From the NCBI GenBank assembly GCA_002271215.1, contig CP018628.1, forward strand, positions 3,658,001 to 3,722,000: a stretch of DNA of 64,000 nt, written 5' to 3'. The notes beneath the pieces are model-generated. The model was not told where the DNA came from, did not search any database, and saw nothing but the letters and a program-made list of their open reading frames with translations. Shown one piece after another: positions 47,308-64,000 of the stretch (positions within the stretch are counted from its first letter, which is position 1; each line of letters opens with the position of its first letter). The DNA comes from Lelliottia jeotgali (lineage in GTDB: Bacteria > Pseudomonadota > Gammaproteobacteria > Enterobacterales > Enterobacteriaceae). Position numbers and translations under genes: made by a program.

Positions 47308-47578
47308 GCTGCATTGCTCTTAATGGTAATAATATAATCCCTCACGTCACTATTGATAACGCGAGATTAAATGAACGTATTGATTTTCTGTTTCTTAGAG
47401 TTGGTCACGTGTAGCGTCAAAAAGGATTTAAAAACAGGAGATTATGCAGTTTAACGTTAGAAATACGTACTCACTCAAGATAGACATGAATAGCTATTCT
47501 GGCGCATAGGCCCCAGTATAGGGCGATCTAAGAGCGCCTTTCTGGATGTCACGAAGGTCAGTGAGAGTGGGAAAAACG

Positions 47579-49201: not shown

Positions 49202-49438
49202 CAATAGGCTTATTTTATAACGCGTGTTTTTCGTCAAGATGATGACAAAACCTGATCAACAATAGAGAGGATACTGATACACCGCTGATTAGCGTCAGGG
49301 ATTTCGTCTTGAAGGGATAATAACTATAATATTGATTATTCTGCCAAATGTTCGCTTGATACTCATTATATTTAATTTATCCAGTACCCAGCGAGCCACA
49401 TAATCAATGTCAGAAGTAAAGCTCGGTATTAAATACAA
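49202..49438. other. Gap between SgrR-like gene and adhesin
   Basis: 237 bp between convergent genes, AT-rich. No terminator with a clear stem and T-run was found and no gene is visible. Confidence 0.4.
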
Positions 49439-50389
49439 TCAGTGTTTTGTCAAAATAAGTATAGCATCTGCAGTAAAATCACCTGTCGCGATATCTCCGA
49501 TGTCAATACCAGGGGCTCTTAATACCTCAAATCCCAATCTAACTTCCGTGACTCCAGGGCCAAAATCCACATTCATAGAGTCATTTAATGACATGACTTT
49601 ATCATTAATAGAAATCGCTATACCAACCCCCTGGATACTGGAACTGACTATTTCGATGCCAGGTATTGTTATGGGCGTATATTGAAGGGTAAATGTTGCT
49701 ATCTGGCTGGCATCGCCAATGCACATCACTTTTAGTGGCAATGTTTTTTTGGTGATCCCCCCCGGCACCGGAGAGATAGAACTCCGCTCAATCGAACCCA
49801 AATCAACATTAAAATCTGTTCCCATGTTCAGATAGCAAAACGCAGGGGACTCAGGTAAAGCGTAGGCATCCTGACAGGTTCTTGGGGAACTTGTTTTCCA
49901 CTCACTCCCGTCTGGTGCGACAAAGGTAAAGCAGAGCCTGCTGGGTCCAGAAAGGGTACCTGAGCCGCCGCCAAAGCCAGGTGTCTGATCAATTATTCTC
50001 TCCGATGAGTTGAGCATGATACTTCTTACAGCATCAAAATATTCTGTACTCTTCGCGATGAGACAATTCCCGGCTGTTTGTGACGCGCATGCGCGGGTTC
50101 GCAATTTGTATAGCCCTGCATAGGGTACATAGGATTTATCAAAACCGTCGGACATTAAGGCCTCGCTGGTTCCCATTTTCGTTGGACCATAAAACAGAGC
50201 AATGCCATCACTCATATGATCTCGTGCCCAGTAACAATCTCCTGCACCATTTGTTTGTGTATTAATTCCTTTATCACACTCTCCAATCGGCATCACCGCA
50301 CCGTTTATATGGTTAGCAAAAGAGAGGTGAGAAAACGCAAACAGAAACACAATGGCACTAATAAAAGAAAGATAAAATCGATGTAGCAT
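49439..50389 (-). CDS. Two-domain pilin/adhesin-like secreted protein, paralogue A
   Basis: 316 residues from ATG; a TTG four codons upstream (50401) has a better ribosome site (GAGGT) and may be the true start. Signal peptide MLHRFYLSFISAIVFLFAFSHLSFA. An N-terminal domain with several Cys (GECDKG, GDCYW, RACASQTAGNC) precedes a C-terminal pilin-like domain (PLKVMCIGDASQIATFTLQY... ending GDIATGDFTADAILILTKH). This layout resembles fimbrial tip adhesins. No chaperone or usher lies adjacent. About half of the residues are shared with the partial gene at 63228-64000. Confidence 0.65.
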   Translation of the reverse strand: MLHRFYLSFISAIVFLFAFSHLSFANHINGAVMPIGECDKGINTQTNGAGDCYWARDHMSDGIALFYGPTKMGTSEALMSDGFDKSYVPYAGLYKLRTRACASQTAGNCLIAKSTEYFDAVRSIMLNSSERIIDQTPGFGGGSGTLSGPSRLCFTFVAPDGSEWKTSSPRTCQDAYALPESPAFCYLNMGTDFNVDLGSIERSSISPVPGGITKKTLPLKVMCIGDASQIATFTLQYTPITIPGIEIVSSSIQGVGIAISINDKVMSLNDSMNVDFGPGVTEVRLGFEVLRAPGIDIGDIATGDFTADAILILTKH

Positions 50390-50518
50390 TGGGATAGTCA
50401 AATCTCATACCTCATCATTCGCAAAACTCATGAAAATACGATTACTCTGGCGTTTTATATGAAAATATATCCATCGATATCATTCTGTATTGAATAGGGT
50501 CAGTGACGGAATTTCAAA

Positions 50519-52141
50519 TCAGTTGCACCTCATCTTTATTGGGTCCTGGATCCAAATTTTAGTGAAATCTGGCCAACCTTGAGGGGATACCGATATGCCT
50601 CTAATTCTGGGGGTTGCTTTCACTTTGAAAACATAGCTAAACAGAGGGTTAATCACATTAAACCTTACAAGTGAATTCATTAATTGACTTGCAGCTCTTT
50701 GGTAGTTTTGCTCACTATAACTAAATTTATTAAGTATCTTTTCCACTTTCATAAATGAGTTTGAAGGCATGAAGCTTTGGAGCATATTGGACCTTTTAAA
50801 ACGCTCCTCGGTTGATAACCATCCAATTGGATCAAACGATAAATCTGAGATAGCCACGTCTATAGAATCCCAGTCCATTTTATTAAACCAATGGTTTGCA
50901 TCAACAGGGTACAACTGGAGCCGGCAACCTCTGTATGCGAGTTGTTTCTTTAAAGAGCTAACGACGATCTCTGTCTCTTTTGACCAAAAATATGCCAGTG
51001 AAAGAGTTGCAGGTAGGATGACGTTTTTATTGCACTGATAATAATCCTTGCCTTTAAAGATAGTAATATTTTTCAAATCATCAAGAGATTTAGATGAGAC
51101 ATAGGTTATCTCTCTTACTAACTCTCTTTGCTCTTTAGTGAGGCTATTTTTATTTAAATTAAAAGCCATAAAAACATATCCGGGAGGCCTGACGTTTTCT
51201 TTAATTGCACTCGCATCGCGCACAGATTCGCCAGGCAACGTCAGAACGACAGTGGTCCACTCATGTTCAACCACTTTAGCAGAAATATTGTATTCTATTT
51301 CCTGTATTAACGGAGTAAACCCATGATATAAATGAGACCTCTGCAATATGACTCTTTCTTTATTATCAGATATCACGGCAAAAGGCCCCAGACCAATTTT
51401 TCCATCTACCGGGTGATGTAACGAGTATATAGGGTTTGCAAGTCTGTAGGCTAAGATAACATCTGGATGGGACAGTGTAATGACCAGCGTATTATCACTA
51501 ACAAGAACAACAGATGTGACATGTTTAAATTCGACATTAGCCAAATGCTTCTTCGTCACTTCCAGCAATTGTTCATTTCTGACAGACTCACCATTATGCC
51601 AGACCAGGCCAGTCCGCAAATGGAAATACCATGTTGTAAAATCATCCGAATGTTCTATTTTATGGGCCAGGTCGGGAACAGGGGTTTCATCTGAGTTCAA
51701 CTTTGTAAAACATGAGTGAACCATTTTAATCAAATGAAGCTCTGCCCGGTCTGATTTTAATGAAGGCGTGAGGCTGCCTATTGGTCGATAAAATGGAATA
51801 CATATTTTATCATCACCAATGAGTGATGCAGAATAATTTTCGTCATCACAGTCGTTTGCATCAACATTCTTCAGATTCAATAAATCATCTTTGCTCACTA
51901 AACATTGCAAACGACCTTTAGCACCACGCCCCGGTCTGGATGACCAGGAAATAAACCCCTCCTCTATCATCTCCTTGAGTAAGGATCGGGCATATCGCTG
52001 GGTGCAGATGAGGACAGAAGAGATCTCATCAATGGTGACAGCGACCTCCTGGGTATTCCATTCTCCGAGCAATCTAAGATACTTTATTTTCAGTCGATGA
52101 AATTTCTTAGATTTTGTATCTATATTAATTTTGCAATTCAC
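50519..52141 (-). CDS. SgrR-family transcriptional regulator, paralogue 2
   Basis: 540 residues, the same length and order as paralogue 1. Winged helix at about 38-82 (TIDEISSVLICTQRYARSLLKEM...GRGAKGRL), solute-binding-like domain with CIPFYRPIGSLTPS and WYFHLRTGLVWHNGESV, and C-terminal PRIRGISVSPQGWPDFTKIWI. Visibly AT-rich with rare codons (ATA, AGA, TTA), unlike the other genes. It lies 117 bp upstream of the adhesin on the same strand, so it may be co-transcribed with it or control it. Confidence 0.82.
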   Translation of the reverse strand: MNCKINIDTKSKKFHRLKIKYLRLLGEWNTQEVAVTIDEISSVLICTQRYARSLLKEMIEEGFISWSSRPGRGAKGRLQCLVSKDDLLNLKNVDANDCDDENYSASLIGDDKICIPFYRPIGSLTPSLKSDRAELHLIKMVHSCFTKLNSDETPVPDLAHKIEHSDDFTTWYFHLRTGLVWHNGESVRNEQLLEVTKKHLANVEFKHVTSVVLVSDNTLVITLSHPDVILAYRLANPIYSLHHPVDGKIGLGPFAVISDNKERVILQRSHLYHGFTPLIQEIEYNISAKVVEHEWTTVVLTLPGESVRDASAIKENVRPPGYVFMAFNLNKNSLTKEQRELVREITYVSSKSLDDLKNITIFKGKDYYQCNKNVILPATLSLAYFWSKETEIVVSSLKKQLAYRGCRLQLYPVDANHWFNKMDWDSIDVAISDLSFDPIGWLSTEERFKRSNMLQSFMPSNSFMKVEKILNKFSYSEQNYQRAASQLMNSLVRFNVINPLFSYVFKVKATPRIRGISVSPQGWPDFTKIWIQDPIKMRCN

Positions 52142-52366: not shown

Positions 52367-52810
52367 TTAAGATGCCATCTCCACCCTGTCTTCTCTGTCG
52401 AGGCCAAGAATCGATGCCTGATGCCAGCAGTCCAGTAAGCTTGCATTTCCCCATTCCGGGTTATGCTCGCGGATCGCATTCTGAGCGCTGAGCACAAATT
52501 GCTGATGCCTGGGGAAAAATAACATTCCTCTATCCTGTTCACTCAAATAAGCCTGTGCTGTCGCGGTCTCTGGAGCAGGTAACAACCAGCGATCGTCCGT
52601 AATAAGAGCAACGGGTGTTTCAGTAGGTATGCTGGCTAATGCGTACAGGGCTTTACACAGGGTGGAGATTTTCTTTTCGGGCATAAAGATGATTTCATTG
52701 GCATCCACCTGTTTAATCTCTGCCGCAGCCGGTGCACACCAGACGGTATGCCATGCGGGCCAGGCGCCCACTGGCGGATTATCGTTAACAATCAACAGGA
52801 TCGGTTTCAC
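52367..52810 (-). CDS. Uncharacterised protein in glycan operon (147 aa)
   Basis: GTG start overlapping the preceding TGA (GTGA), which supports its place as last gene of the operon. The start MKPILLIVNDNPPVGAWPAWHTVW and the later DDRWLLPAPETATAQAYL suggest a soluble alpha/beta protein. No signal peptide or membrane helix. I do not recognise the family; a role in handling a nucleotide or sugar is only suggested by location. Confidence 0.7.
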   Translation of the reverse strand: MKPILLIVNDNPPVGAWPAWHTVWCAPAAAEIKQVDANEIIFMPEKKISTLCKALYALASIPTETPVALITDDRWLLPAPETATAQAYLSEQDRGMLFFPRHQQFVLSAQNAIREHNPEWGNASLLDCWHQASILGLDREDRVEMAS

Positions 52811-53439
52811 GCAGCAGCCTCACATTGCTTAATAAAATGATGAATACGTGTCCAGGTCACTTCAGAAGGGTCTTTAACAGCCAGCACATTGGCACCCGAC
52901 GCACGTGCCGCGGCGATACCATGTGGATTATCTTCAACAATGACGCACTCATGGGGCTTGAGTCCTAAACGATGCTGAGCCAGAAGATAAATTTCCGGGT
53001 CGGGTTTGCCAGACTTCACGTCTTCATTGGAGAGCGTGAACTCCAGATAGGGCAGCAGATTGGCACGAGAAAGCATGCACTCAATACTTCCGCGAACAGA
53101 ATTAGATGCCACAGCCAGGCGATAACCCGCTTGTTTCAACTGTGATAAAGCATATTGATGCTGATCGACAGGTATACAGTTCTGATGAATCAAATTCATG
53201 GTGTAGCGCTGCTTCATCTCATTGATAAAACTATGTAATGCTGGAGGTAAACCGCTGCGCTCGGTCAGGCGATTTAGCTTGTCGCGGGTTGGCAGGCCAT
53301 CAAATTCACCTTCATGTTCTGCGCGGGTGATCGTGCTACCAAACAGCGAAAGCGCCTGGTTCATGGCCTCGTAATGCCACTCTTTCGCATCAATCAGCAC
53401 ACCGTCCATATCGAAAATTACGCCTTTAACCCGACTCAC
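52807..53439 (-). CDS. HAD-superfamily phosphatase (beta-phosphoglucomutase-like)
   Basis: 210 residues from a GTG that overlaps the previous stop; the open frame upstream is not used. VIFDMDGVLIDAKEWHYEAMN is HAD motif I with both Asp, VASNSVRG is motif II, KSGKPDPEIYLLA motif III, and VIVEDNPHGIAAARASG motif IV. The cap domain is of the beta-phosphoglucomutase/GMH-B type. It probably dephosphorylates a sugar- or polyol-phosphate intermediate of the glycan; substrate unknown. Confidence 0.88.
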   Translation of the reverse strand: MSRVKGVIFDMDGVLIDAKEWHYEAMNQALSLFGSTITRAEHEGEFDGLPTRDKLNRLTERSGLPPALHSFINEMKQRYTMNLIHQNCIPVDQHQYALSQLKQAGYRLAVASNSVRGSIECMLSRANLLPYLEFTLSNEDVKSGKPDPEIYLLAQHRLGLKPHECVIVEDNPHGIAAARASGANVLAVKDPSEVTWTRIHHFIKQCEAAA

Positions 53440-54068
53440 GCGAAATACTCCTTCGCCTGTTCGGGGTAATCCGTGCAAAGCATCAGCGCAGGGTATTTCC
53501 ATAGAATGTCAGAAAGCGTCGCCAGTTTGTGCCAAAACGGAGCGTGCTCTCTTCCATGCAATTCAGGCGAAACCAGACAGACCTGTTTCCCCCAGCCCAA
53601 CCATTCTTCCAGCCTGTCAGGCGAGACATCCTGATATTGGAACCCATCGACCCAGAGAACAGGAGCCAGCTCACTGAGCATACCCTCCGGCTCATATTCA
53701 CTCAGTCTTGCGGCGGCATTCAGCCCACGATGGAGGTACGGCAGCGTGTCAGGAACGGACATATCAAAGCAAAAATAGTGTTTGATTCCGTGTTGAATGA
53801 GCAAATGCTGTAACACATCCGTCAAGCCGTCAGATTTTATATTCAGTGCCAGCGTGCCTGGATTCTCTGCCTGCACATAATCCTCGAACATCACACTGAG
53901 TGGGAGCGCTTCATGACCTGGCATATCGTGACTGACAACTAAGGTTCCGTCGAAGTCACGGACATCCGTTTCTACCCCGAAACCACTCTGAAATGCCCTC
54001 TGCAGAGCCTGCCGGCTGTTTTTTTCTCCCGGAGTCAACCAGTGCCCCCGGTGTGCCAAAATTTGCAT
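53436..54068 (-). CDS. Glycerophosphodiester phosphodiesterase-like protein
   Basis: 210 residues. The start MQILAHRGHWLTPGEKNSRQAL and VETDVRDFDGTLVVSHDMPG are the GDPD motifs with His and the Glu/Asp metal ligands. WVDGFQYQD and LCTDYPEQAKEYF end the barrel. The protein is short for the family and lacks a signal peptide, so it is cytosolic. Such enzymes in surface-polysaccharide loci suggest a phosphodiester or glycerol-phosphate moiety; that is an inference. It overlaps the HAD gene by 4 bases. Confidence 0.85.
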   Translation of the reverse strand: MQILAHRGHWLTPGEKNSRQALQRAFQSGFGVETDVRDFDGTLVVSHDMPGHEALPLSVMFEDYVQAENPGTLALNIKSDGLTDVLQHLLIQHGIKHYFCFDMSVPDTLPYLHRGLNAAARLSEYEPEGMLSELAPVLWVDGFQYQDVSPDRLEEWLGWGKQVCLVSPELHGREHAPFWHKLATLSDILWKYPALMLCTDYPEQAKEYFA

Positions 54069-54100
54069 TGCGTTTAATCCTTATTAAAAACGGGAAACTC

Positions 54101-54814
54101 TTATTGCGGAGAATGGTAGTGCGCCAGAGCGGTATCGATATCGCCGTCGTAAACCACCCTGCCGGCAGCCAGTAATAAGCCACGTTTGCACACGGCTCGC
54201 AGTTGCGTATCGTCATGACTGACCAGCACGAGGGTTCCGCCATCCGATTGAAAATGGGCAATTTTTTCAAAGCATCGCATCTGGAATTCCCGGTCACCCA
54301 CGGCGAGGGCTTCATCAATGACCAGGATATCGCTGTCGAGGTGAATACCGACGGAAAATGCCAGTCTTAACAACATGCCAGAAGAGTAGGACCTGACCGA
54401 CGCATCAATAAATGACGCCAGCCCGGCGAACGCGACCATCTCATCAAGCTTGCGCTGCACGGCGCGACGATTCATACCGAGGATCGCACCGGCTAAAAAA
54501 ATGTTCTCACGTCCGCTCAAATCGTGATGAAACCCTGCGCCAACCTCTAACAACGAAGAGAGTCTTCCCCGCACTTTAATCTGCCCGGCAGTCGGTCGGG
54601 TGACTCGGGTCAACAGCTTAAGTAAGGTCGATTTCCCGGCACCATTTTTACCCGGGATACCCAGCGACTCCCCTGCTTTCAGGTGGAAACTGACATCCTC
54701 AAGGGCGGTGAATCCCCCGACGGGTGCCTGACGGCGAAATGCCAGTGCGCTACGCAGGCTGTCCCCTTGTTTTTGTGAGGGATACACTTTGCTCACATGC
54801 TCAAACGTAATCAT
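54101..54814 (-). CDS. Polysaccharide ABC exporter ATPase (KpsT/Wzt-like)
   Basis: 237 residues. Walker A GIPGKNGAGKSTLLKLL (Pro at a position usually Ile or Ser), signature YSSGMLLRLAF, Walker B DILVIDEALAVGD and the switch His in LVSHDD. It has only the nucleotide-binding domain, like KpsT; there is no C-terminal carbohydrate-binding domain as in O9a-type Wzt. It energises export of a glycan across the inner membrane with the permease upstream, which it overlaps by 4 bases. Confidence 0.93.
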   Translation of the reverse strand: MITFEHVSKVYPSQKQGDSLRSALAFRRQAPVGGFTALEDVSFHLKAGESLGIPGKNGAGKSTLLKLLTRVTRPTAGQIKVRGRLSSLLEVGAGFHHDLSGRENIFLAGAILGMNRRAVQRKLDEMVAFAGLASFIDASVRSYSSGMLLRLAFSVGIHLDSDILVIDEALAVGDREFQMRCFEKIAHFQSDGGTLVLVSHDDTQLRAVCKRGLLLAAGRVVYDGDIDTALAHYHSPQ

Positions 54815-55656
54815 TCGCGGTCAATCACCTTAGCTTCGTAGCAAATAAAGAAACGGTAACCACAAACCGCTATCACAACGCATCCGACGACCGACCAGAC
54901 AAGATGAAGCACTGGCGGCAAAGGGCCATCAAGCAGGGCAAAACGAAACAGAGTCACCAGTCCATAGAGCGGATTGAGCGCCAGCAAATCCTGCAAACGC
55001 GGGGACAGCAGTCCCGGCGTCCACACGACGGGAGTGGCATAAAACAGAGATTGCATCAGCAGCGGCATGGCATGTCGGACGTCGCGAAAGCGTAATTTGG
55101 CTACAGCAAGCAGGCAGCCCAACCCCCAGCCACTCATCGCCACCAGCGCGGTACACAGCAACAAGAGTGGCATTTTTGCCAACGACGGAGGCAACCCGAC
55201 CGTGGCAGCAAGAAGCACAAACAGCACTAACGCGATAGCGAAGTCCCCCAGGCTAACCCCAGTTCCAGCCAGCGTTAAAACCGTTCTGGGGAAGTAAATT
55301 TTCTTCACCAGATGGATGTTGTTGAGCAGGCTATCTGCAACGGCATTAACGGTTGACTGAAATAACATCCACACCAGAAGCCCGCTGAGTAGAACCAGCG
55401 CATAAGGGACTGAATAATCAGGTGGATTTAGGCGGACCAGAAGGCCAAACACCAGGTAATACATCGCAAGATTCATTAACGGGCTGAATACAGCCCAAAG
55501 CCAGCCGAGCCAGGTCTGGCGGTAGCGGACGGTTAAATCCCGCCACATCAGCTGTGTCACAATATGGCGAGCCTGCCAGAGGTCACGCAGGGTTGTGCGG
55601 CTGTGCGGATCGGAGACAAACCCCTCTTCATGCGATAAAAAAGGAAACTTGCGCAT
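54811..55656 (-). CDS. Polysaccharide ABC exporter permease (KpsM/Wzm-like)
   Basis: 281 residues, about six membrane helices. The ABC-2 entry segment LWQARHIVTQLMWRDLTVRYRQTWLGWLWAVFSPL is typical of Wzm/KpsM/TagG. VKKIYFPRTVLTLAGTG and RDVRHAMPLLMQSLFYATPVVW follow. It pairs with the ATPase. No KpsD, KpsE, KpsC or KpsS is in the window, so the outer-membrane path is undefined. Confidence 0.92.
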   Translation of the reverse strand: MRKFPFLSHEEGFVSDPHSRTTLRDLWQARHIVTQLMWRDLTVRYRQTWLGWLWAVFSPLMNLAMYYLVFGLLVRLNPPDYSVPYALVLLSGLLVWMLFQSTVNAVADSLLNNIHLVKKIYFPRTVLTLAGTGVSLGDFAIALVLFVLLAATVGLPPSLAKMPLLLLCTALVAMSGWGLGCLLAVAKLRFRDVRHAMPLLMQSLFYATPVVWTPGLLSPRLQDLLALNPLYGLVTLFRFALLDGPLPPVLHLVWSVVGCVVIAVCGYRFFICYEAKVIDRE

Positions 55657-55691
55657 TATTCAATTCCGGTTAATTCGATAGAGGTCGCGCG

Positions 55692-56702
55692 TTAGCGGTG
55701 ATGGCTGAAGAGACGCATTGCCAGCCGACGAATTGCAGGCTGTCTGAGTAATTTCGCTCGCAGGATGTAACCTCTGCGCCAGAGCGCAATCAGCATACGT
55801 TCAGGCATTCTGTAAGGTTCGCCCTGTTGCCCGCGTTGATACCATGCGTTCAACTGTTCCCATCGGCTAAAGGTCATCGTGCTAAACAGGCCACGCAACG
55901 GATAGCAACGCCAGTACTTTGGCCAGCGCAACTGCAATTGACGGGGGCGGAAGGGAACAAAGTTATTCAGAAAATAGAGTTCAGAATCCTGGCGATCTTG
56001 GTCGACGCCCCCCAAACAGCCCTGATAAACGGTCTTTCCTGTCACCTTGCGAATAGCATTTACCCACAGCCACTGCTCGGGAACATAGCGCCAGGGGATC
56101 CACAATCCCGGCACTGACGAGGGCTGGAACAGATCGGTGTCCGCTATCGGGGCGCTGAAAAACAGACGTAAGTCTTCCGTCCTCCCCGCGAGCAAAATGT
56201 CCCCTGGGTGGTAAAGAAACGGCAAGCTGCCACGGGCATCACGGGCAAACCAGGAGGCATTGATCACCCGGTCTGTGAAAACCGAGTAATCGGGATGACG
56301 TAACGGGCCGCGTCCCTCTACCACATAGCGATTGATCATGTTTTCCAGGCCGCGCCCGGCGAGCCGGGTATCGGTACGCAATTTCACCGCCAGCGGCCGT
56401 GTTGCCGCCGCGAGTCCTGCGAATGAGGAACGGAGCAAACGGTTAACATTACAATGGTACCCACCAGCCTCATCGCTACCGATAAGAGCGCCAGGATCAT
56501 CATTCAAGATCAGCCTGACCTGAATGGCATCCAGTGCACGTTGTAGCGCCGCATCCGCAACAGGTGTCACCCTCCAGGAGGAGACAATCATCTCAGCATC
56601 CGGGAAGAAACGCCGGGTATGGAGAATATTACCTCTCACCTCAGGGCTGAGTTTGCCAGGCTCACCGGTAGGGCCCTGAAAAACAATGGATAACGCTTTC
56701 AT
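55692..56702 (-). CDS. WavE-family glycosyltransferase
   Basis: 336 residues from the ATG after a GTG; AGGAAAGGG precedes it and the ATG overlaps the previous TGA. IVFQGPTGEPGKLSPEVRGNILHTRRFFPDAEMIVSSWR, LNDDPGA, LLRSSFAGLAAATRPLAVKLRTDTRL (the acidic K.RTD motif) and HPGDILLAGRTEDL are WavE features. WavE proteins act in Vibrio LPS core and in other polysaccharides. The protein is cytosolic or membrane-peripheral and the sugar is unknown. Confidence 0.83.
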   Translation of the reverse strand: MKALSIVFQGPTGEPGKLSPEVRGNILHTRRFFPDAEMIVSSWRVTPVADAALQRALDAIQVRLILNDDPGALIGSDEAGGYHCNVNRLLRSSFAGLAAATRPLAVKLRTDTRLAGRGLENMINRYVVEGRGPLRHPDYSVFTDRVINASWFARDARGSLPFLYHPGDILLAGRTEDLRLFFSAPIADTDLFQPSSVPGLWIPWRYVPEQWLWVNAIRKVTGKTVYQGCLGGVDQDRQDSELYFLNNFVPFRPRQLQLRWPKYWRCYPLRGLFSTMTFSRWEQLNAWYQRGQQGEPYRMPERMLIALWRRGYILRAKLLRQPAIRRLAMRLFSHHR

Positions 56703-57172
56703 CACCCTTTCCTGCCAACCAGACGAAGCAATAACTTCGGTACACGTACAGGCAATCCACGAAACAGTGATAGCAGCAATCCAAACGCATAAAGCCTGCC
56801 CATAGGAGGCGTGCCCGGCGTTACGAAAGAGAAGTGCTGCTGCCAGGCGGCTTCACGCTGTGACAGTAATCCGCCGGTCAGTACCAGCCACAGAGGCTCT
56901 CCGTCATGGGCCGCTTGCAATGCATGACGTTGCAGCTGGGGCCAGACTTTATCGGGCTGAGTCGCCAGCCCGCCCTGATGGAGAATGATCACACCCGGAC
57001 CTTTTTTGTTCAGCAATAACTCATGCCCGACGACGAGGCTATCGTTCAGCGTGTACCACCGGCAGTGCGTTGACTCTGCCGCGGGTAAGCAGGTGAGCGA
57101 GCCGACGCCATTCAGCCAGTCCAGTGCATCATTGACGGAACATGTCACAATACGGATATCAGGTTGTGTCAC
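56702..57172 (-). CDS. Uncharacterised protein in glycan operon (156 aa)
   Basis: GTG start overlapping the TGA of the glycosyltransferase upstream. MTQPDIRIVTCSVNDALDWL and the PGVIILHQGGLATQPDKVWPQL stretch suggest a Rossmann-like fold; the hydrophobic C-terminus (RLYAFGLLLSLFRGLPVRVPKLLLRLVGRKG) could contact the membrane. The start, with a list-like 'DIRIVTCSVND', resembles the entry of GT-A domains but is too short for a full one. Family not recognised. Confidence 0.7.
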   Translation of the reverse strand: MTQPDIRIVTCSVNDALDWLNGVGSLTCLPAAESTHCRWYTLNDSLVVGHELLLNKKGPGVIILHQGGLATQPDKVWPQLQRHALQAAHDGEPLWLVLTGGLLSQREAAWQQHFSFVTPGTPPMGRLYAFGLLLSLFRGLPVRVPKLLLRLVGRKG

Positions 57173-58893
57173 GGCTTACCTCGATTTTGCAGATGTGGGT
57201 TGCGGGCATTCAGATAAATCAATCGCCACAGGTCAAAAAACGGCAGCCGTAGTGATACATGGTGACAGCCATACTTCAGCCAAAGGGCACTGAGCAGACT
57301 CCCCACGACACGACGGCCTTTGTTGTTATGGAAAGCAGCGCCAGAAGGTGCAAAACAGTGGCTAAATGGATTGTTGTAGATTTGCCGCAACAGTGAAGGG
57401 TGGCGAATCATAATGAGTTTTTTTCGGGCGGGCGAAGACACGCTGTCCAGCACAATCTGCAGATAATAGAGTTCAGGCGGCACCGCGGTTTCACACAGCA
57501 CGTCACGATACCAGTCAGCCAACAGATTTTGCATATCACCCCGCGCTTGCCACAGCAGGCGAGCCACGAGGCGGTAGCGGCTCAAACCACGCAGGGAAGT
57601 TGCCCGGCGAACCAGCACATCGCTGCCGGTATATTTGCTGGCAAACGACGATAACCGTGCGCGTGCTTCGCTCTCAGTTAGTATCAGATGAGGATGCCGT
57701 GGGAATCCCCATAATTCCTGAGGTGCACGCTGGTATGAGACCCGGCCATTTTTTTTCACCCCTGACTGGAAACCAAATGCATGCATGATGCTGCGATACG
57801 ACAGAGTGGTGGCGAAACCCCAGGGATTTATCGATGACGGGATGCCGGCCACTGCCGCACAAAGCCCCTGCTCAACATCCTCGTAATCCTGCCAGAAAAG
57901 TGCTTCATTCTGGGGCATATGCTGCCAGACCGAGCGCTTGCACAAACAGAGACTTCCGGTCAGATAGTCGTGCCCAAAAGCGGAGCGGGCCGGATGCCTG
58001 GCGGCCATTCCGATCGCTTCAAAGCGCGGTAATGACTCACGCGTGATCCGCGACCCGGCAAAATCAATCGCCGGCATCGCCAGTACCACCCCGGCATCCG
58101 AGTAACGGCGCGGAACGGCCTGCCAGGTGTCAGCAAACCAGAAAGACTGAAAAGTGGTAAACGGATAGGCATCGCCGTACTGGTTTACAGCCTGACGGAA
58201 GTTTTCCGCCAGCAATACCCGGTCATGCAGAATACAAAGATTAGGGTAGCGTGCCGCCTGAGCCAGAACGTTTTTCTTACGCGTGATATGAACAGGTGGT
58301 GCCACGATATCTTCGCCAACAATGCGAACGTCCTGCCAAAATTTAAAATCATGATGTGGACGACCGCACAGGATGATTTCATATTCGGGAAGGCCCAGGC
58401 TGAGGATCCTTGCAACACAGGCATTGAGCGATGTCGGATCGCCATCTCCTGTTGGAATACAAAAACTCCAGCTGTCCAGCCCGGACTCTGCTTCAACCGC
58501 CAGGGGGCCTAGCTTGACGAAACAGCGAGCAACCTCCCCTTCTTCACCCATCTCACGAAAGGCTTCTGCGTAATAACTCCGCCCCAACAGGTCAGCCACC
58601 GACTGCGACGCCGCCAGATAGATTTTTCGCCCAACTTGAAGCAGGTGCGCAATATCCCACAGCAGTTGGGCAGCCAGCGGTGAATCGTCAAAATGCACCA
58701 GCAGCACATCCCCTGTCAGCTGATCCTGAAAACGATCCAGCGCACTGATGCGACGAATCCGGCTGTCGCCTCGGGCAAACGAAATCACGGTGGTCTGCGC
58801 GGGGTTATCCATTTTTACGCTTGCGGGATCGAACGTCTGACGGCACGTCGGATAACCTAAAGCGCGGTCATGGGCCAGACAGATCAGTTTCAT
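57169..58893 (-). CDS. Large two-part glycosyltransferase-like protein
   Basis: 574 residues. Residues 1-140 form an alpha/beta unit (LVHFDDSPLAAQLLWDIAHLLQVGRKIYLAA) like a methyltransferase or nucleotide fold. From about 145 a GT-A-like domain follows: EYEIILCGRPHHDF, NLCILHDRVLLAENFRQAV in the DxD place, and FWQDYEDVEQGLCAAVAG as the late acidic motif. The C-terminal 150 residues are helical. It overlaps neighbours by 4 bases on both sides. It likely adds a sugar or phosphosugar to the glycan; specificity unknown. Confidence 0.75.
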   Translation of the reverse strand: MKLICLAHDRALGYPTCRQTFDPASVKMDNPAQTTVISFARGDSRIRRISALDRFQDQLTGDVLLVHFDDSPLAAQLLWDIAHLLQVGRKIYLAASQSVADLLGRSYYAEAFREMGEEGEVARCFVKLGPLAVEAESGLDSWSFCIPTGDGDPTSLNACVARILSLGLPEYEIILCGRPHHDFKFWQDVRIVGEDIVAPPVHITRKKNVLAQAARYPNLCILHDRVLLAENFRQAVNQYGDAYPFTTFQSFWFADTWQAVPRRYSDAGVVLAMPAIDFAGSRITRESLPRFEAIGMAARHPARSAFGHDYLTGSLCLCKRSVWQHMPQNEALFWQDYEDVEQGLCAAVAGIPSSINPWGFATTLSYRSIMHAFGFQSGVKKNGRVSYQRAPQELWGFPRHPHLILTESEARARLSSFASKYTGSDVLVRRATSLRGLSRYRLVARLLWQARGDMQNLLADWYRDVLCETAVPPELYYLQIVLDSVSSPARKKLIMIRHPSLLRQIYNNPFSHCFAPSGAAFHNNKGRRVVGSLLSALWLKYGCHHVSLRLPFFDLWRLIYLNARNPHLQNRGKP

Positions 58894-59651
58894 GCAGCCA
58901 CCCGGCCACTGCTGACCGCTTTTTCTGCCACATCACTTTGTAAAAAAGTGGCGAGATCGGCCGGAGTACCCAGGCCGTACATACCGGTGCCAATCGGGTA
59001 GGTGTCGATACGTGTTTGGCCGTTCTGGTACAGACGGGTGTACACCGGCGCAACGTAGAATTCACCCTGGCTACGCTCGTTCTCTGCCACCATTTTGCGG
59101 GCCTGGAAGCAGAAATCACGGCCCCGGCGGAAATTGTAAATCCCCACTGTCGCTTCATCAGAAACCACCTGCTTTTCCACCACCTGGCAAACCTGTTGCT
59201 GCTCATCGCGCAGCACATAGGACCATTTGGCATCGCTGGCGTGAAACGTCATCAGCAGGCCATCAAGTTCCCGGCGATCCATCGTCGCCAGATAGGCATC
59301 AATATCGCTGTCCACCCACTGATCCGAGTTGGCGATCATCAGCGGTTGATCGTTATCGATTAGCGCTGCTGCCGCCAGGACGGTGCAGGCGGCGCCGTCA
59401 GTCAGCCCTGGTAATCCAATGACCTCACACCCCGGAGCCAGCCGCTGCAATTTTTGCTTAAAGCGATACCGTTCCAGGTGCTCCTGCTGACAGATAAAGA
59501 TAAAACGGTGTGGGCGCGACGGGCGAAGATTGCGAATCACTAACTCCACCATCGGCAGCCCCTTCACCGGAATAAAGGGTTTCGGATCGGTAAAACCAGC
59601 GTGTGAGAAACGGCTGCCAAGCCCTGCCATGGGTATTACGATATTCAACAT
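58890..59651 (-). CDS. Sugar-phosphate nucleotidyltransferase-like protein
   Basis: 253 residues. IVIPMAGLGSRFSHAGFTDPKPFIPVKGLPMVELVIRNL is the NTP-transferase signature with the GxGxR-type loop and Lys. MIANSDQWVDSDIDAYL carries the metal Asp, and ATVGIYNFRRGRDF follows. The N-terminus resembles the cytidylyltransferase-like enzymes of Campylobacter capsule modification clusters (for example Cj1416). It should activate a sugar or polyol phosphate for the glycan. Its ATG overlaps the cupin stop by one base. Confidence 0.88.
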   Translation of the reverse strand: MLNIVIPMAGLGSRFSHAGFTDPKPFIPVKGLPMVELVIRNLRPSRPHRFIFICQQEHLERYRFKQKLQRLAPGCEVIGLPGLTDGAACTVLAAAALIDNDQPLMIANSDQWVDSDIDAYLATMDRRELDGLLMTFHASDAKWSYVLRDEQQQVCQVVEKQVVSDEATVGIYNFRRGRDFCFQARKMVAENERSQGEFYVAPVYTRLYQNGQTRIDTYPIGTGMYGLGTPADLATFLQSDVAEKAVSSGRVAA

Positions 59652-60007
59652 CAGCTAACGTCATCCAGATATTTGTCGTTCAAAGCGCCAGGAAGTTTCA
59701 CCACCACCGTGGTACAGGCATCCAGCGCATAAAAGGAAGAAGAGGTGCCGGGAGAGAGCGTCAGAATATCGCCCGCGTTCAGCTCAACACCCGCCATACA
59801 GGCCCGGCCTGACAGCAACAGAGTCACCTCAGTGGCAATCTTGTGGTGGTGCCATTCGGCGCAATAGCCTGCCGGAAAGTGCTGAACCGCGACCTCAACA
59901 TCCGAAGTATTGAAGGCGGCAGGCGAGAACGCCCCGACAAACCATCCTCCTTTCATGTCTGAGAGGTGGTCGAGCTTTACCCCAGCTAACACGTCATGTT
60001 TCGTCAT
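59651..60007 (-). CDS. Small cupin-fold protein
   Basis: 118 residues from MTKHDVLAGVKLDHL, with GGAG 8 bases upstream; a longer frame upstream overlaps the ligase gene and is less likely. FPAGYCAEWHHHKIATEVTLLLSGRACM is a cupin motif 1 with metal-type His and Glu, and AGDILTLSPGTSSSFYALDACTTVVVKLPG motif 2. It could be an epimerase, isomerase or sensor of a sugar derivative. It lies between the ligase and nucleotidyltransferase genes. Confidence 0.83.
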   Translation of the reverse strand: MTKHDVLAGVKLDHLSDMKGGWFVGAFSPAAFNTSDVEVAVQHFPAGYCAEWHHHKIATEVTLLLSGRACMAGVELNAGDILTLSPGTSSSFYALDACTTVVVKLPGALNDKYLDDVS

Positions 60008-60018
60008 TGGCGACTCCA

Positions 60019-61851
60019 TCATCGAGAAACAGGTTGCAGTGACGAGCAGCGAAACCGCGCGTCCTGATAAAAACTCAGGCAACCGCGTTCGCGCCAGTAG
60101 TGAGCGCTTTCGCTGTCATTTCGGGAATGCGCAATTTGCAGCATCGTCAGGGTGAGGTTGGCGTCGTTGTGGCGGCTCAACCACACCCCGGCTTTTTGCT
60201 GAAAATCGGTGAGAAGATCCCGGTCATGCGTCTGGTTGAAGACCATCAGGTCCTTGACGGCGCGATCAAACATCAGACGATCGGCCTGCGCCCAGGGGTT
60301 GCTCACCGTGCTCAACGCCGATGAGTCCATCAAATCAAACGATTCCGCCTCGTGCAGCTGCAGCGAGGAATAAACGCCACTGACCATAAACACCATTCCA
60401 GCCAGGCTTAATAACGCGACAAGAATTGTCATCGCCCAACGAGCGGTGGCAGACAAACCAGCAGCTGTGCTTTTTTTTCGCTCTCTCACCGGGAGCGCGA
60501 GCCATAACAATATCGCCAGCAAAACAAGGTGGATGACTGACTGATAAAGGGGATACTCACTCATCATATGCGCCATCACCGGCAGTAGCAGAGCGCCTCT
60601 TGCCGCGACATTGCGGCCTCTCAGCGCGGTATAGCGCCAGCGATGCGTGCGGATATTCAGAAGGCTAACGGCAAAGGGAAGAAAAGGTTTGAACCCGACA
60701 ACCAGCCACAGCAGGAAGCCTGTTAAGGCAACAACCCCACCTTCAAACCAGACGTAAAGTAGTTCGTTATGCGGATGCACCGCCGTCACCGGGAAAGGAT
60801 TGATCGCCCCGTTATCACGCAGAACCTGAGGGAAGCGAACTTCAAAGCTGCCCAGCCCCTCACCGGCGAGTGGGTTTTCCCGCTTCATCAACAGCGCCCC
60901 TTTAAACAACGTCATTCGCTCGTTGTTAGAGTGCTGGCGATTCCATGCCAGTCGCTCCTGGGTGTTGTTCGGGCGCATATCACCGGCAGCCACACTGGAC
61001 GTCAGCGGCGTTGTTTGTAAAACAGGCTGCGCCACAAGTCCCAGCATAAGACCGCCGTACAGGCAGAGAAGCACTTTGCGCAATGCCGGGGAGTCAAATC
61101 GCAACACCACCAGTACAATCAAGGTGAGCAAGGCACTCGCCTGCATTGATCGAGATTGCGACATCACCACTCCCGCGCTGAGCAGGACTATGGCCAGCAT
61201 GTTCAATCGTGAGATCAGGTGAGACCGTGTCTGACTGCGCGGAATTGACAGTGCCAGCCACACTGAACAGGCAAGCGCCGTCACTAAAAATGAACTCAGC
61301 AGGTTCACCTGATTCAGGCTACCAAGAGGGCGACCATCAGCGGCATTCAGGTTGTAGCCCAGCCACATTTCTGCGGAACTAGGAGAGCCGATTTGCCAGA
61401 AGGCCATCGCTACCTGAATGAGTCCTGCGATAACGACAACACCATAGATTTTGCGGCGCTGATCACCACGGACCGGCAGTTGAAGCAGCAAGGCAAACAA
61501 CATTGCAATGGCGGCAATACCGGCCAGACGCATCAACGCGTTGGCGCGGAAAATATCTGGCGTCCATAACAGCGGTAGCGCCATCAGTATGGCCCCCATC
61601 AGCAGAGCCAGGATGACGTTTTTTCCGCGCAGTCGGCGGCGCCATAACACCGGTATCAGGCACAGCCCGCAGAAGCAGATCCACACCCAGGTCATCAGAT
61701 TGATGGGCTTATCGAGACCGATTCCCGACAGCGTCGGCCAGGGCAGCGGCAGCAGAACAACGAGCAGCACTGCCAGCACAATCCCAGGATTCAGACAGAA
61801 GCGGAATGAGAGAGCTGAACGCAACCGGGTTGCAGAATGGACGTTAGACAT
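60019..61851 (-). CDS. O-antigen ligase/PglL-type O-oligosaccharyltransferase
   Basis: 610 residues from MSNVHSATRL, with GGAGAAAG just upstream. About ten to twelve membrane helices, and the large periplasmic loop between residues 300 and 385. GRPLGSLNQVNLLSSFLVTALACSVW recalls the PglL_A motif (R..G...Q.N..A), and VHPHNELLYVWFEGGVVAL is the Wzy_C motif whose His is needed in PglL and WaaL. A soluble C-terminal region of about 130 residues follows (Wzy_C_2-like). It should transfer lipid-linked glycan to protein or lipid acceptor in the periplasm. Which acceptor is unknown. Confidence 0.85.
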   Translation of the reverse strand: MSNVHSATRLRSALSFRFCLNPGIVLAVLLVVLLPLPWPTLSGIGLDKPINLMTWVWICFCGLCLIPVLWRRRLRGKNVILALLMGAILMALPLLWTPDIFRANALMRLAGIAAIAMLFALLLQLPVRGDQRRKIYGVVVIAGLIQVAMAFWQIGSPSSAEMWLGYNLNAADGRPLGSLNQVNLLSSFLVTALACSVWLALSIPRSQTRSHLISRLNMLAIVLLSAGVVMSQSRSMQASALLTLIVLVVLRFDSPALRKVLLCLYGGLMLGLVAQPVLQTTPLTSSVAAGDMRPNNTQERLAWNRQHSNNERMTLFKGALLMKRENPLAGEGLGSFEVRFPQVLRDNGAINPFPVTAVHPHNELLYVWFEGGVVALTGFLLWLVVGFKPFLPFAVSLLNIRTHRWRYTALRGRNVAARGALLLPVMAHMMSEYPLYQSVIHLVLLAILLWLALPVRERKKSTAAGLSATARWAMTILVALLSLAGMVFMVSGVYSSLQLHEAESFDLMDSSALSTVSNPWAQADRLMFDRAVKDLMVFNQTHDRDLLTDFQQKAGVWLSRHNDANLTLTMLQIAHSRNDSESAHYWRERGCLSFYQDARFRCSSLQPVSR

Positions 61852-62122
61852 ACTTTCTCCACTTCTGCGATGGCTCCTGCCAGGCAACAATATCGAGTTT
61901 TCCCACTGCAGCCACATCACGTAAATATCTCACGATATCGTTCAGTAACTGTGCAGCCTCTGGCTCGCTTTCATGAAGGCTTTCCGCTGCTCCACGCGCC
62001 CGGGACTCCAGACGGACAATTCCGCCGCCATAGTTGATGACCGCATTTTCCAGTAATTGCAGACGATCTGGCTTACTTGCCGTCTTTCTTTTATCCGACA
62101 AGCCGATCAGTGTTGTTAACAC
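61844..62122 (-). CDS. Uncharacterised small protein (92 aa) before the ligase
   Basis: GTG start with AAGGAGC 6 bases upstream; its end overlaps the ligase start by 8 bases, so it is translated in the same unit. Soluble, mixed-charge, with RLESRARGAAESLHESEPEAAQLLNDIVRYLRDV as a predicted helix. No known motif. A helper of the ligase or of the acceptor is possible only by position. Confidence 0.65.
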   Translation of the reverse strand: MLTTLIGLSDKRKTASKPDRLQLLENAVINYGGGIVRLESRARGAAESLHESEPEAAQLLNDIVRYLRDVAAVGKLDIVAWQEPSQKWRKYV

Positions 62123-62201: not shown

Positions 62202-63131
62202 TCAGTTGGCTTTCAGCCCCTTGAAGTGATACTCCAGCACCGTAAAGGGCTGAACATGATCCGGGAGCGGCAGGGAGCCGTAGACCGATTTCGCCAGCCC
62301 ATAGGCCACTATGTCGCTGCCCACACCCAAGAGCGGCAGCGCATCGCGCACAACGGACGGCATCGAATCTTCCGCCGAGATAGTCAGGGAAGGCACTTCG
62401 CTAATGACATCCCCACCGAGAACCTGTTCATGCAAAGACAGGCGCACTGGTGACTCTTTGTCGGTCAACGGCTGACCTTTATTGATCACCAGGTAAGTCA
62501 CGCCATTTTTAGTCTGCGCAGGTATCCGCTCGCCAATCTCTTTTCGCAACGTGGCTTCACTGACTTTCATTTTGTCTTCGACGCCAGACTGAACACGTTC
62601 AGCAAAGTCTTTCCATGAATCGTCAAAAGTCTTCTGATCAAGCCGGTGGGCGTCCTGAAGACCATCGAGCAGACCCGTTTCAAACCAGTGGTCGTCAACC
62701 TTCACCCCAACCGCTTCCCAGCCTTCAAGGCGACCATTAATACCGGAGATCATCGACTGACCAGCTACGTAGGCCATTTTTGCCTCCACGGTAACCGGGG
62801 GTTGAGCCGACTCAGTCGCTTTAGCGATCAGGGCATCAAGTTCCTTTTGCTGGCTCGCCAAACGTTTTTCCAACTCTGCGCGCTCGGTAATCTGTTTTGC
62901 TGCTTCTTCTCTTAAGCGCTGGTTCTGGCTTTCCAGCGCGACAGACGTAATGCCATATTCAGAGAGTGGCGCGACCGCTTTTTTCGATGTCGCGGCTGTA
63001 GCAGATTCGTTATTCACAGGTTTAACGTTTTTGATATCGGAAGGGGCTGCTGATGCCAGAAGTGGAATACAGATCCCCGCAATAATAGATATACGCATAC
63101 ACGCAGGCAGCACAGAATAAGACACTGTCAT
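62202..63131 (-). CDS. FKBP-like periplasmic protein, degenerate PPIase domain
   Basis: 309 residues from ATG 63131; a second ATG at 63098 (MRISIIAGICIPLLASAAPSD) also gives a signal peptide. Residues 65-105 form a coiled coil (ESQNQRLREEAAKQITERAELEKRLASQQKELDAL). AYVAGQSMISGINGRLEGWEAVGVKVDDHWFETGLLDGLQ resembles the FkpA N-terminal dimer domain, and the C-terminal half has FKBP-like YGSLPLPDHVQPFTVLEYHFKGLK. Many active-site aromatics look absent, so isomerase activity is doubtful and a chaperone role is more likely. Confidence 0.72.
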   Translation of the reverse strand: MTVSYSVLPACMRISIIAGICIPLLASAAPSDIKNVKPVNNESATAATSKKAVAPLSEYGITSVALESQNQRLREEAAKQITERAELEKRLASQQKELDALIAKATESAQPPVTVEAKMAYVAGQSMISGINGRLEGWEAVGVKVDDHWFETGLLDGLQDAHRLDQKTFDDSWKDFAERVQSGVEDKMKVSEATLRKEIGERIPAQTKNGVTYLVINKGQPLTDKESPVRLSLHEQVLGGDVISEVPSLTISAEDSMPSVVRDALPLLGVGSDIVAYGLAKSVYGSLPLPDHVQPFTVLEYHFKGLKAN

Positions 63132-63227
63132 TAACCTCACACAATAAAAATAGAATTAACTAAAATGACAAAAAATAATGAAACCGACACACCATCGCGG
63201 CTTTAAATAATAAAAAACAGTGCTTAT

Positions 63228-64000
63228 TTATTGCTTCGTTAAAATCATTACGGCGTCGGCATTAAAACTGCCGGTACCGATCGTCCCGATATTCACATAG
63301 GGATCTCTCACGACTTCAAATCCAAGGTTGACCGTTGTCACACCCGGCTGGAACGTTTGTGTCACCGTTTCTTTTGTCGTCATTAATTTATCATCAATAA
63401 AAATGGCGACACCAAGTCCTGCTTTATCTGCACTCACCACTTCACTACCCACGATAGTGACAGGCGTATACTCGAATTTCATTGTTGTGGTTGCAGCGGC
63501 ATCACCACTACACATCACTTTTAAAGGAACCGTTTTTTTGGTGGTGCTCCCCGGAACAGTGGAGATCATCCCTCGCTCGATCGTCCCCATATCCACATCA
63601 AGATCGACACCCGAATTCAGATAACAGAACGAGGGCTTTTCCGGTAAACGCGGTGCATCCTGACAGGTACGCTTTGCGCTGGTACTCCATTCACTACCGT
63701 CATCCGAGACAAAGGTGAAGCAAATCGTACTTGAAGTCGCAAGTTGCCCTGCACCACCGCCAAAATCAGGCGTCTGATCCACAATTTTCGCACCCGACTG
63801 CAGTTGGACTGCATTTCTGGAGTCGAAGGTTTGCGCACTGCTTCCCAGCGTGCAGTTTCCGGCCTGGGTTCCAGGACACGCATGCGTGCGCACGCGGTAC
63901 AGACCTGAATAGGGCACATAGGATGTGGAGAAGCCATCGGCCATTAATTTATAGCTGCCTGCTTTTTCCCCATCCACGGGCGTTGGACCATAAAAAAGAG
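63228..64000 (-). CDS. Two-domain pilin/adhesin-like protein, paralogue B (5' end outside window)
   Basis: The frame is open to base 64000 (reading LFYGPTPVDGEKAGSYK), so the N-terminus is missing. The visible about 256 residues share with paralogue A at 49439 the motifs LFYGPT, YVPY(S/A)GLY, IDQTP(D/G)FGGG, CFTFV, RTCQDA, FCYLN, GTIERG/GSIERS and TKKT(V/L)PLKVMC, and end NADAVMILTKQ. The C-terminal domain is pilin-like. It lies 97 bp upstream of the FKBP-like gene on the same strand. The pair may be the start of a secretion or fimbrial unit continuing to the right. Confidence 0.75.
   Translation of the reverse strand, partial: LFYGPTPVDGEKAGSYKLMADGFSTSYVPYSGLYRVRTHACPGTQAGNCTLGSSAQTFDSRNAVQLQSGAKIVDQTPDFGGGAGQLATSSTICFTFVSDDGSEWSTSAKRTCQDAPRLPEKPSFCYLNSGVDLDVDMGTIERGMISTVPGSTTKKTVPLKVMCSGDAAATTTMKFEYTPVTIVGSEVVSADKAGLGVAIFIDDKLMTTKETVTQTFQPGVTTVNLGFEVVRDPYVNIGTIGTGSFNADAVMILTKQ

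Follow-up and report, generated by a model that had tools for sequence, protein, structure and literature searches.

Chaperone-usher pili are widespread adhesion fibres of enteric bacteria and are mostly taken as plain protein. PglL-type O-oligosaccharyltransferases are known from systems with a Wzx-type flippase, and the glycan of the Klebsiella pneumoniae O1/O2 cluster, which is exported by an ATP-binding cassette (ABC) transporter, has lipid A-core as its native acceptor via WaaL. Here, a window of 64,000 nucleotides from Lelliottia jeotgali was analysed, corresponding to positions 3658001-3722000 of a single-contig genome of 4.60 Mb (CP018628.1). It contains a glycan operon of 12 genes with a PglL-type ligase and an ABC exporter (positions 52367-62122 of the window, minus strand throughout). 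Past base 64000, on the same strand, a chaperone-usher fimbrial operon leads into a gene for an FKBP_N-like protein, a gene for a protein of 92 amino acids (aa) and the ligase gene. The locus probably encodes a dedicated O-glycosylation system for the chaperone-usher pilus, here fed by an ABC-exported glycan.

Among described systems, the PglL/TfpO enzymes of type IV pilins in Neisseria and Acinetobacter are among the closest. They share with the Lelliottia ligase the Wzy_C and Wzy_C_2 architecture, a set of listed residues and a gene position beside the presumed pilin substrate (Schulz et al. 2013, PMC3643930, available part). The neighbour is a type IV pilin there and a chaperone-usher fimbria here, and a Wzm/Wzt-like exporter is present instead of a Wzx-type flippase. 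ABC export together with an O-ligase is described for S-layer glycosylation in Geobacillus and Paenibacillus: Wzm/Wzt is combined with a predicted Wzy_C O-oligosaccharyltransferase, WsaB or WsfB, acting on a surface protein (PMC2943079, available part). That system resembles the Lelliottia locus in the ABC exporter, the predicted Wzy_C O-ligase and the protein acceptor; it differs in its acceptor, an S-layer protein in Gram-positive bacteria, in its sugars and in having no pilus. In engineered Escherichia coli, PglL was combined with the O1/O2 cluster of K. pneumoniae (wzm, wzt, glf), as described in the available part of PMC10163571. The glycan is ABC-exported, as here, and the gene set of wzm, wzt, glf and glycosyltransferases is like that of a Pantoea agglomerans locus (L047, see below), whereas the sugar genes of the window belong to other families.

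The usher, chaperone and major pilin of P (pap) and Stf fimbriae are homologous to those of the Lelliottia locus, and we take all these fimbriae to be members of the pi-clade. We know of no ligase or glycan genes in pap or stf. The CFA/I fimbria of enterotoxigenic E. coli is presumably also of the chaperone-usher type, from another fimbrial clade than that of the window. Its subunit CfaB was reported to be O-glycosylated in the BEMAP study, the available part of which connects it with neither a PglL-type ligase nor a glycan operon (PMC5000012). Among the titles and abstract openings listed by searches of the open-access PMC library, one of which listed 40 of 105 papers, none concerns a linkage between a PglL-type ligase and chaperone-usher fimbriae; a mention in full texts, subscription articles or bioRxiv is possible.

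The fimbrial operon encodes a major pilin, a second pilin, an usher, a chaperone, four minor subunits and a tip-adhesin-like protein, the gene of which enters the window at base 64000. The C-terminal piece of the usher, one of 13 usher matches in the genome, scores 698 bits with PapC and 230 bits with FimD. StfD is the nearest model for the chaperone (294 bits, under its cut-off of 447), and the major pilin is marginally closer to FimA (82 bits) than to PapA (72 bits). The initial annotation, made from the window alone, had considered kps, wza or pilus genes beyond base 64000. Kps and wza genes were not seen in the 18 kb past this base; pilus genes were found, in the form of this chaperone-usher operon that had been missed. 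Its location just outside the window names the likely acceptor: the most likely one is the pilus encoded next door. The earlier guess of a protein acceptor is thus supported by the adjoining fimbrial operon, the recurrent linkage to ushers and the PglL-type residues of the ligase, from which we infer the acceptor.

This linkage recurs in other genomes. A scan with a ligase profile gave 159 related stretches, of which the best 80 are treated as named loci, each spanning 10 kb on either side of the ligase. An usher with at least about 50% identity to that of the window is present in 26 of the 29 named loci outside Vibrionaceae/Moritella and in none of the 51 inside; in 19 of the 26, it is encoded on the strand of the ligase. 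In a second set of 295 genomes of the family, 53 ligase rows were obtained; 42 with at least 70 bits were kept and 11 were dropped. An usher is near 39 of these 42 ligases: for 24 of them, a high-scoring usher is no more than 15 kb away, and for 15 of the remaining 18, the surrounding stretch contains an usher. The chance expectation is about 9% (rough arithmetic, with 13 ushers per 4.6 Mb). Both sets share some assemblies, and their rows are related by descent. Seen from the usher, 26 of 96 high-scoring ushers (scoring covered the four best candidates per genome) have a ligase nearby, which makes the ligase a facultative addition to pili of this class. Four Yersinia loci (L050, L051, L059, L075) have pglL-type genes with chaperone-usher genes in the neighbourhood. 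For three Yersinia pglL genes, perhaps others than these, the neighbours were labelled 'pilin', meaning a type IV pilin homologue, in Schulz et al. 2013 (PMC3643930, available part). Pilus-ligase modules also occur on plasmids of Pantoea, Scandinavium and Serratia entomophila (L167, L168, L169), with insertion sequence (IS) transposases in two of the three stretches.

The major pilin offers a candidate site for the glycan. The loop preceding its last beta strand contains an Ala-Ser dipeptide, as in GDGASATIVPGDF. Defined as [GNTS]AS within this loop, the motif is present in the major pilins of 37/41 ligase-linked operons and of 4/37 unlinked operons (p 4e-13), or in 28/32 versus 4/36 when distinct loops are counted. 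In rows unseen when the motif was formed, the numbers are 10/10 linked and 1/19 unlinked (distinct loops 7/7 and 1/18). Two of the four unlinked carriers belong to genomes with a ligase elsewhere (G025, G254). The pilins derive from loci chosen by hand, 47 linked ones from both sources and 40 from the 70 unlinked usher rows; nine of these 87 were dropped for a major pilin outside the stretch or with a low score. No comparable excess of the motif was found in minor subunits, one type of which is sparse (4/10 linked, 1/5 unlinked). In a pilin tree calculated without the loop, there are 14 changes of the link label, at least five of them on firm branches. By count, the association of motif and ligase is strong; once corrected for descent, it is underpowered. 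The Ala-Ser loop is a predicted glycosylation site, and it is similar to Ala-Ala-Ser-Ala-Pro of AniA, which is accepted by the Neisseria PglL (PMC3643930, available part).

Judged by its sequence, the ligase is a PglL-type O-oligosaccharyltransferase. The scores for Wzy_C (60.7 bits, cut-off 31.7) and Wzy_C_2 (53.7 bits, cut-off 28.5), the latter presumably the PglL_B region, exclude a WaaL-only profile. Seven residues were described as kept in PglL and not in WaaL, which are Q178, N180, G316, G318, H400, E404 and P406 in Neisseria meningitidis (PMC3643930, available part). All seven are present in the ligase as Q181, N183, G330, G332, H428, E432 and P434, with an equivalence set by spacing and motif and not by alignment with the Neisseria protein, and they are invariant in 23/23 rows (alignment A1). 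A separate Wzy_C gene of WaaL size (456 aa) is located in an apparent waa locus, the genes of which were named by eye; here and below, such names are readings of the translations with no search behind them. The ligase itself lies outside the lipopolysaccharide (LPS) locus and adjoins a candidate substrate gene, and its C-terminal domain is not in the genome's WaaL. These findings uphold the initial annotation as a PglL-type enzyme, with PglL_A (PF15864) under its cut-off. An AlphaFold2 model (mean predicted local distance difference test, pLDDT, 82.9) has a helical C-terminal part, and the WaaL structure 7tpg is the sole PDB structure match under E 0.001, hence the nearest solved fold. A PDB sequence search gave no match for the ligase, and NCBIfam yielded a weak RfaL match and nothing more. 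An identity of the ligase as WaaL was rejected on account of the other Wzy_C gene in the apparent waa locus and of the differences in residues and C-terminal domain.

Gene identities, fimbrial linkage, ligase family and the conserved loop were computed; for donor lipid, transfer, acceptor residue and glycan structure, we infer the following pathway. The nucleotidyltransferase, HAD, GDPD-like and cupin proteins would provide an activated sugar. The 574-aa and the WavE-type glycosyltransferases would build the glycan, probably on undecaprenyl pyrophosphate, for which we assume the housekeeping WecA as primer. The lipid-linked glycan would be flipped by the Wzm/Wzt-like ABC exporter. In the periplasm, the PglL-type ligase would transfer the glycan to a Ser or Thr of the fimbrial major subunit, before or during chaperone/usher assembly, and the modified site is most likely in the loop that precedes the final beta strand. 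The pilus would then display the glycan.

The exporter had been named KpsM/KpsT-like in the initial annotation. The ABC exporter stands; Wzm/Wzt-like is the better label, as the permease scores 72 bits with the galactan Wzm/RfbD and 51 bits with KpsM. The ATPase scores 181 bits with a TagH-type model, followed by 167 bits with the galactan Wzt/RfbE. All of these are under the equivalog cut-offs. For the AlphaFold2 model of the 574-aa protein (pLDDT 91.9), the Foldseek matches were glycosyltransferases that covered a part of the model (best E 6e-7, query template modelling score 0.2-0.3). In a homology search with this protein, the rows were mostly unnamed or 'hypothetical' and gave no name for the sugar. 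The protein was matched in seven genomes, one of which (G054) has a frame with stops and was left out when the surroundings were viewed. Three of the seven (L192-L194) have a sugar cassette of cupin, nucleotidyltransferase, 574-aa glycosyltransferase family, WavE, GDPD and HAD genes. There, the cassette has two neighbours: a secreted-looking protein of 672 aa that carries a GDSL-like motif, and an acyltransferase-like gene that is split (both by eye).

A cassette of the window type follows the fimbrial and ligase genes in Cedecea, Citrobacter, Buttiauxella, Lelliottia and on a Scandinavium plasmid. The gene order recurs in four further named enterobacteria (L037-L040, with Buttiauxella sp. B2 as L039) and on this plasmid; a chance gathering is therefore very unlikely, and the operon is confirmed as real. 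In Citrobacter FP75 (L038), the cassette is placed between fimbrial genes, all on one strand, with two extra open reading frames (ORFs) before the adhesin, and it is without the 574-aa glycosyltransferase and 156-aa genes. The other Lelliottia (sp. V86_10, L040) is without a match to the 92-aa gene; one fimbrial operon is followed there by a tandem of two distinct PglL-type ligases (L040:8225-11701). P. agglomerans (L047:9651-18434) has like fimbriae, the small gene and the ligase, followed by a different, galactan-like ABC cassette of GT4, Wzm, Wzt, UDP-galactopyranose mutase (GLF), GT2 and DUF4422/GT8. Most relatives have a ligase without any of the window's sugar genes beside it, and no other glycan cassette was recognised by eye in the ORF lists. 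Their ligases would use another lipid-linked glycan, for example O-antigen or enterobacterial common antigen units. A Wzx-flippase-like gene (by eye; L138:6515-7807) lies about 4 kb from a fimbria-linked ligase without ABC cassette.

A tree of 56 proteins places the ligases that adjoin ABC cassettes in one clade of eight (support 99/100). This clustering suggests a ligase clade adapted to ABC-exported glycans. The clade also holds one plasmid ligase without cassette and with an IS6 transposase downstream, and the first of the two tandem Lelliottia ligases falls outside. On balance, we lean towards a wider view in which the PglL-type ligases of Enterobacterales form a class dedicated to PapC-like pili, coating the whole shaft via the Ala-Ser loop. 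The sugar would be interchangeable, mostly a lipid-linked glycan of the host, with at least two ABC cassettes recruited in one ligase clade.

Several observations weigh against a dedicated pilus glycosylation system. The PglL_A score of the ligase is 18.5 bits, under the cut-off of 25. The genome's own WaaL has the equivalents of Q181, N183, G332 and H428 and is without those of G330, E432 and P434 (alignment A2), so that only three of the listed residues separate ligase and WaaL here. Among the named loci, seven of the 26 ushers are on the strand opposite to the ligase, the usher of L080 is just 31% identical, and L055 and L061 are without usher nearby (2/29). In the genome set, three of the 39 neighbouring ushers are 29-31% identical only, and the ligases of L118, L121 and L122 have no usher nearby; L118 adjoins apparent IS21-type genes (by eye). 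Seventy of the 96 high-scoring ushers are without a ligase nearby. The window's own major pilin has no Ala-Ser (GSTTSVIAGAF), nor do the pilins of L037, L038 and L049; the loops of L037 and L038 are Ser/Thr-rich like that of the window. The motif is thus missing in three of six operons with the window-type cassette (window, L037, L038). Corrected for descent, five independent pairs on firm branches are left, with averages of 3.2 in agreement, 0.0 opposed and 1.8 without a difference (median p 0.25). Codon 164 of the usher is an in-frame TAA (contig 3727614-3727616; L004:7615-7617), after which the frame is open. The Lelliottia strain of the window may not assemble the pilus, or the TAA may be an assembly error; the ushers of L037-L040 are uninterrupted. 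The two pieces of the interrupted usher were used separately in comparisons. In L192-L194, the sugar genes have no exporter or fimbrial match within 20 kb and the genomes have no ligase match. The sugar cassette is therefore not specific to pili and appears to be a module that the pilus has recruited.

Other explanations differ in the acceptor or in the meaning of the linkage. PglL enzymes can be general (PMC3643930, available part), and the ligase could mainly modify another periplasmic protein, with a regulatory or accidental linkage to fimbriae. The three of 42 ligases without usher and the sugar cassette beside a GDSL-motif protein would agree with general glycosylation; the recurrence of PapC-like ushers beside the ligase and the motif in the loop of the major pilins make it unlikely. 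A modification of O-antigen or LPS, with the ligase as a second WaaL acting on lipid A-core, seems quite improbable. The Wzm/Wzt-type exporter, the WavE glycosyltransferase and the fold in common with 7tpg would fit such a function, but the apparent waa locus already has a WaaL-size Wzy_C gene, and three PglL-listed residues, the C-terminal domain and the linkage to fimbriae set the window ligase apart. Fimbrial islands may also be insertion hot spots, with glycan genes and ligase as hitch-hikers without functional link. It would then be necessary to explain why the ligase lies behind or beside like fimbrial operons in many genera, why a second cassette has arrived behind the pilus-ligase module and why the pilin loop motif goes with the ligase. 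We regard hitch-hiking as very unlikely, even though the locus occurs on plasmids, transposases are nearby in two of three plasmid stretches, and two SgrR genes and an orphan adhesin adjoin it in the window.

It is extremely improbable that the ABC transporter exports a capsular or secreted polysaccharide. The exporter does fall within the broad KpsMT/Wzm-Wzt family, but a PglL-type ligase would have no role in such a locus. No kps or wza genes were seen in the 18 kb past base 64000, with kpsE not searched by a model. The only PF05159 match of the genome is about 1.2 Mb away (contig taken as a circle) among apparent flagellar genes, and the only Poly_export (PF02563) match is in a colanic-acid-like cluster (by eye). 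With these whole-genome searches and both match regions read by eye, the capsule reading was rejected; the initial annotation had already argued for something other than an ordinary capsule locus.

O-glycosylation of the chaperone-usher pilus remains the preferred reading. If true, chaperone-usher pili would have a dedicated, genetically encoded glycosylation machinery, and a linked ligase with swappable glycans would make many of them glycoproteins. This would bear on adhesion, on recognition by antibodies and phages and on structural work. The Ala-Ser loop of the major pilin is a directly testable site. The loci would also supply natural O-ligases apparently matched to ABC-exported glycans, which would be useful for making glycoconjugates.

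The glycan operon is compact, as first described, on the minus strand and with mostly overlapping genes. Nine of the 11 junctions are overlaps of 1-8 bases, assuming internal starts for the HAD gene (GTG 53439) and the cupin gene (ATG 60022); at the remaining two, the genes are 32 and 35 bases apart. With the longest frames, the HAD and cupin overlaps are 67 and 64 bases. The initial annotation gave eleven genes, while its own list sums to twelve. A scan for promoters and terminators found sites no commoner than in shuffled sequences and is uninformative on co-transcription. Of the earlier enzyme labels, WavE holds, the cupin is weak and the GDPD-like protein has a weak PDB similarity without any match in a Pfam scan. 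Its homologues form a large family, mostly unnamed or 'hypothetical' and in some sources labelled phosphodiesterase. The HAD enzyme scores 128 bits with a beta-phosphoglucomutase subfamily model, under the cut-off. NCBIfam gave nothing for the 92-aa, 147-aa and cupin-like proteins.

Genes of the glycan operon in transcription order, from the 92-aa protein to the 147-aa protein, followed by two genes on its upstream side (positions in the window)
Feature	Position	Strand	Evidence
92-aa protein directly before ligase	61844..62122	-	no Pfam match; matches before ligase in L037, L038, L039, L047
PglL-type O-oligosaccharyltransferase, 610 aa	60019..61851	-	Wzy_C and Wzy_C_2 over cut-off
Small cupin-like protein	59651..60022	-	Cupin_2 13 bits (under cut-off); kept in L037-L040, L144
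Sugar-1-phosphate nucleotidyltransferase	58890..59651	-	NTP_transferase 44 bits; PDB 4evw 63 bits
574-aa glycosyltransferase-like protein, C-terminal part helical	57169..58893	-	no Pfam match; AlphaFold2 model
156-aa protein	56702..57172	-	no Pfam match; kept in L037, L039, L040, L144
WavE-family glycosyltransferase	55692..56705	-	PF07507 105 bits
ABC exporter permease, Wzm-like	54811..55656	-	ABC2_membrane
ABC exporter ATPase, Wzt/TagH-like, short (237 aa)	54101..54814	-	ABC_tran
GDPD/PI-PLC-like protein	53436..54068	-	weak PDB match, glycerophosphodiester phosphodiesterase
HAD phosphatase/phosphomutase-like enzyme	52807..53502 (start perhaps GTG 53439)	-	HAD_2 121 bits
147-aa protein, final gene of glycan operon	52367..52810	-	no Pfam match; 34-52% identity in L037-L040, L144
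FKBP N-terminal-domain-like protein	62202..63140	-	FKBP-type isomerase model 24.5 bits, far under cut-off; 48% identity in L037
Tip-adhesin-like fimbrial subunit, final subunit gene of the fimbrial operon	63228..64000, on to 64226	-	Fimbrial 24.4 bits, slightly under 25.6 cut-off

The surroundings of these loci contain further genes. A recurrent protein with 24-26% identity to the FKBP_N-like gene product is encoded near ligase-linked fimbriae (L141:8180-9409, L040:19731-21167), and in L141 it is preceded by a lipoprotein-like gene (L141:9406-9834). In the window, two SgrR-type regulators with 42% mutual identity flank an orphan tip-adhesin-like gene at 49439-50401 (region 47546-52141), the product of which is 51% identical to that of the adhesin-like gene 63228-64226. 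SgrR-like genes are also found near the loci of Cedecea (L037) and P. agglomerans (L047). The KpsS-domain match to PF05159 lies with glycosyltransferase-like genes in the apparent flagellar cluster (L165:3518-8704, contig about 311500-316700) and perhaps concerns flagellar glycosylation. A 1009-aa autotransporter-like protein (by eye; L004:11386-14415) carries the proline-rich repeat PPVVTPPVV.

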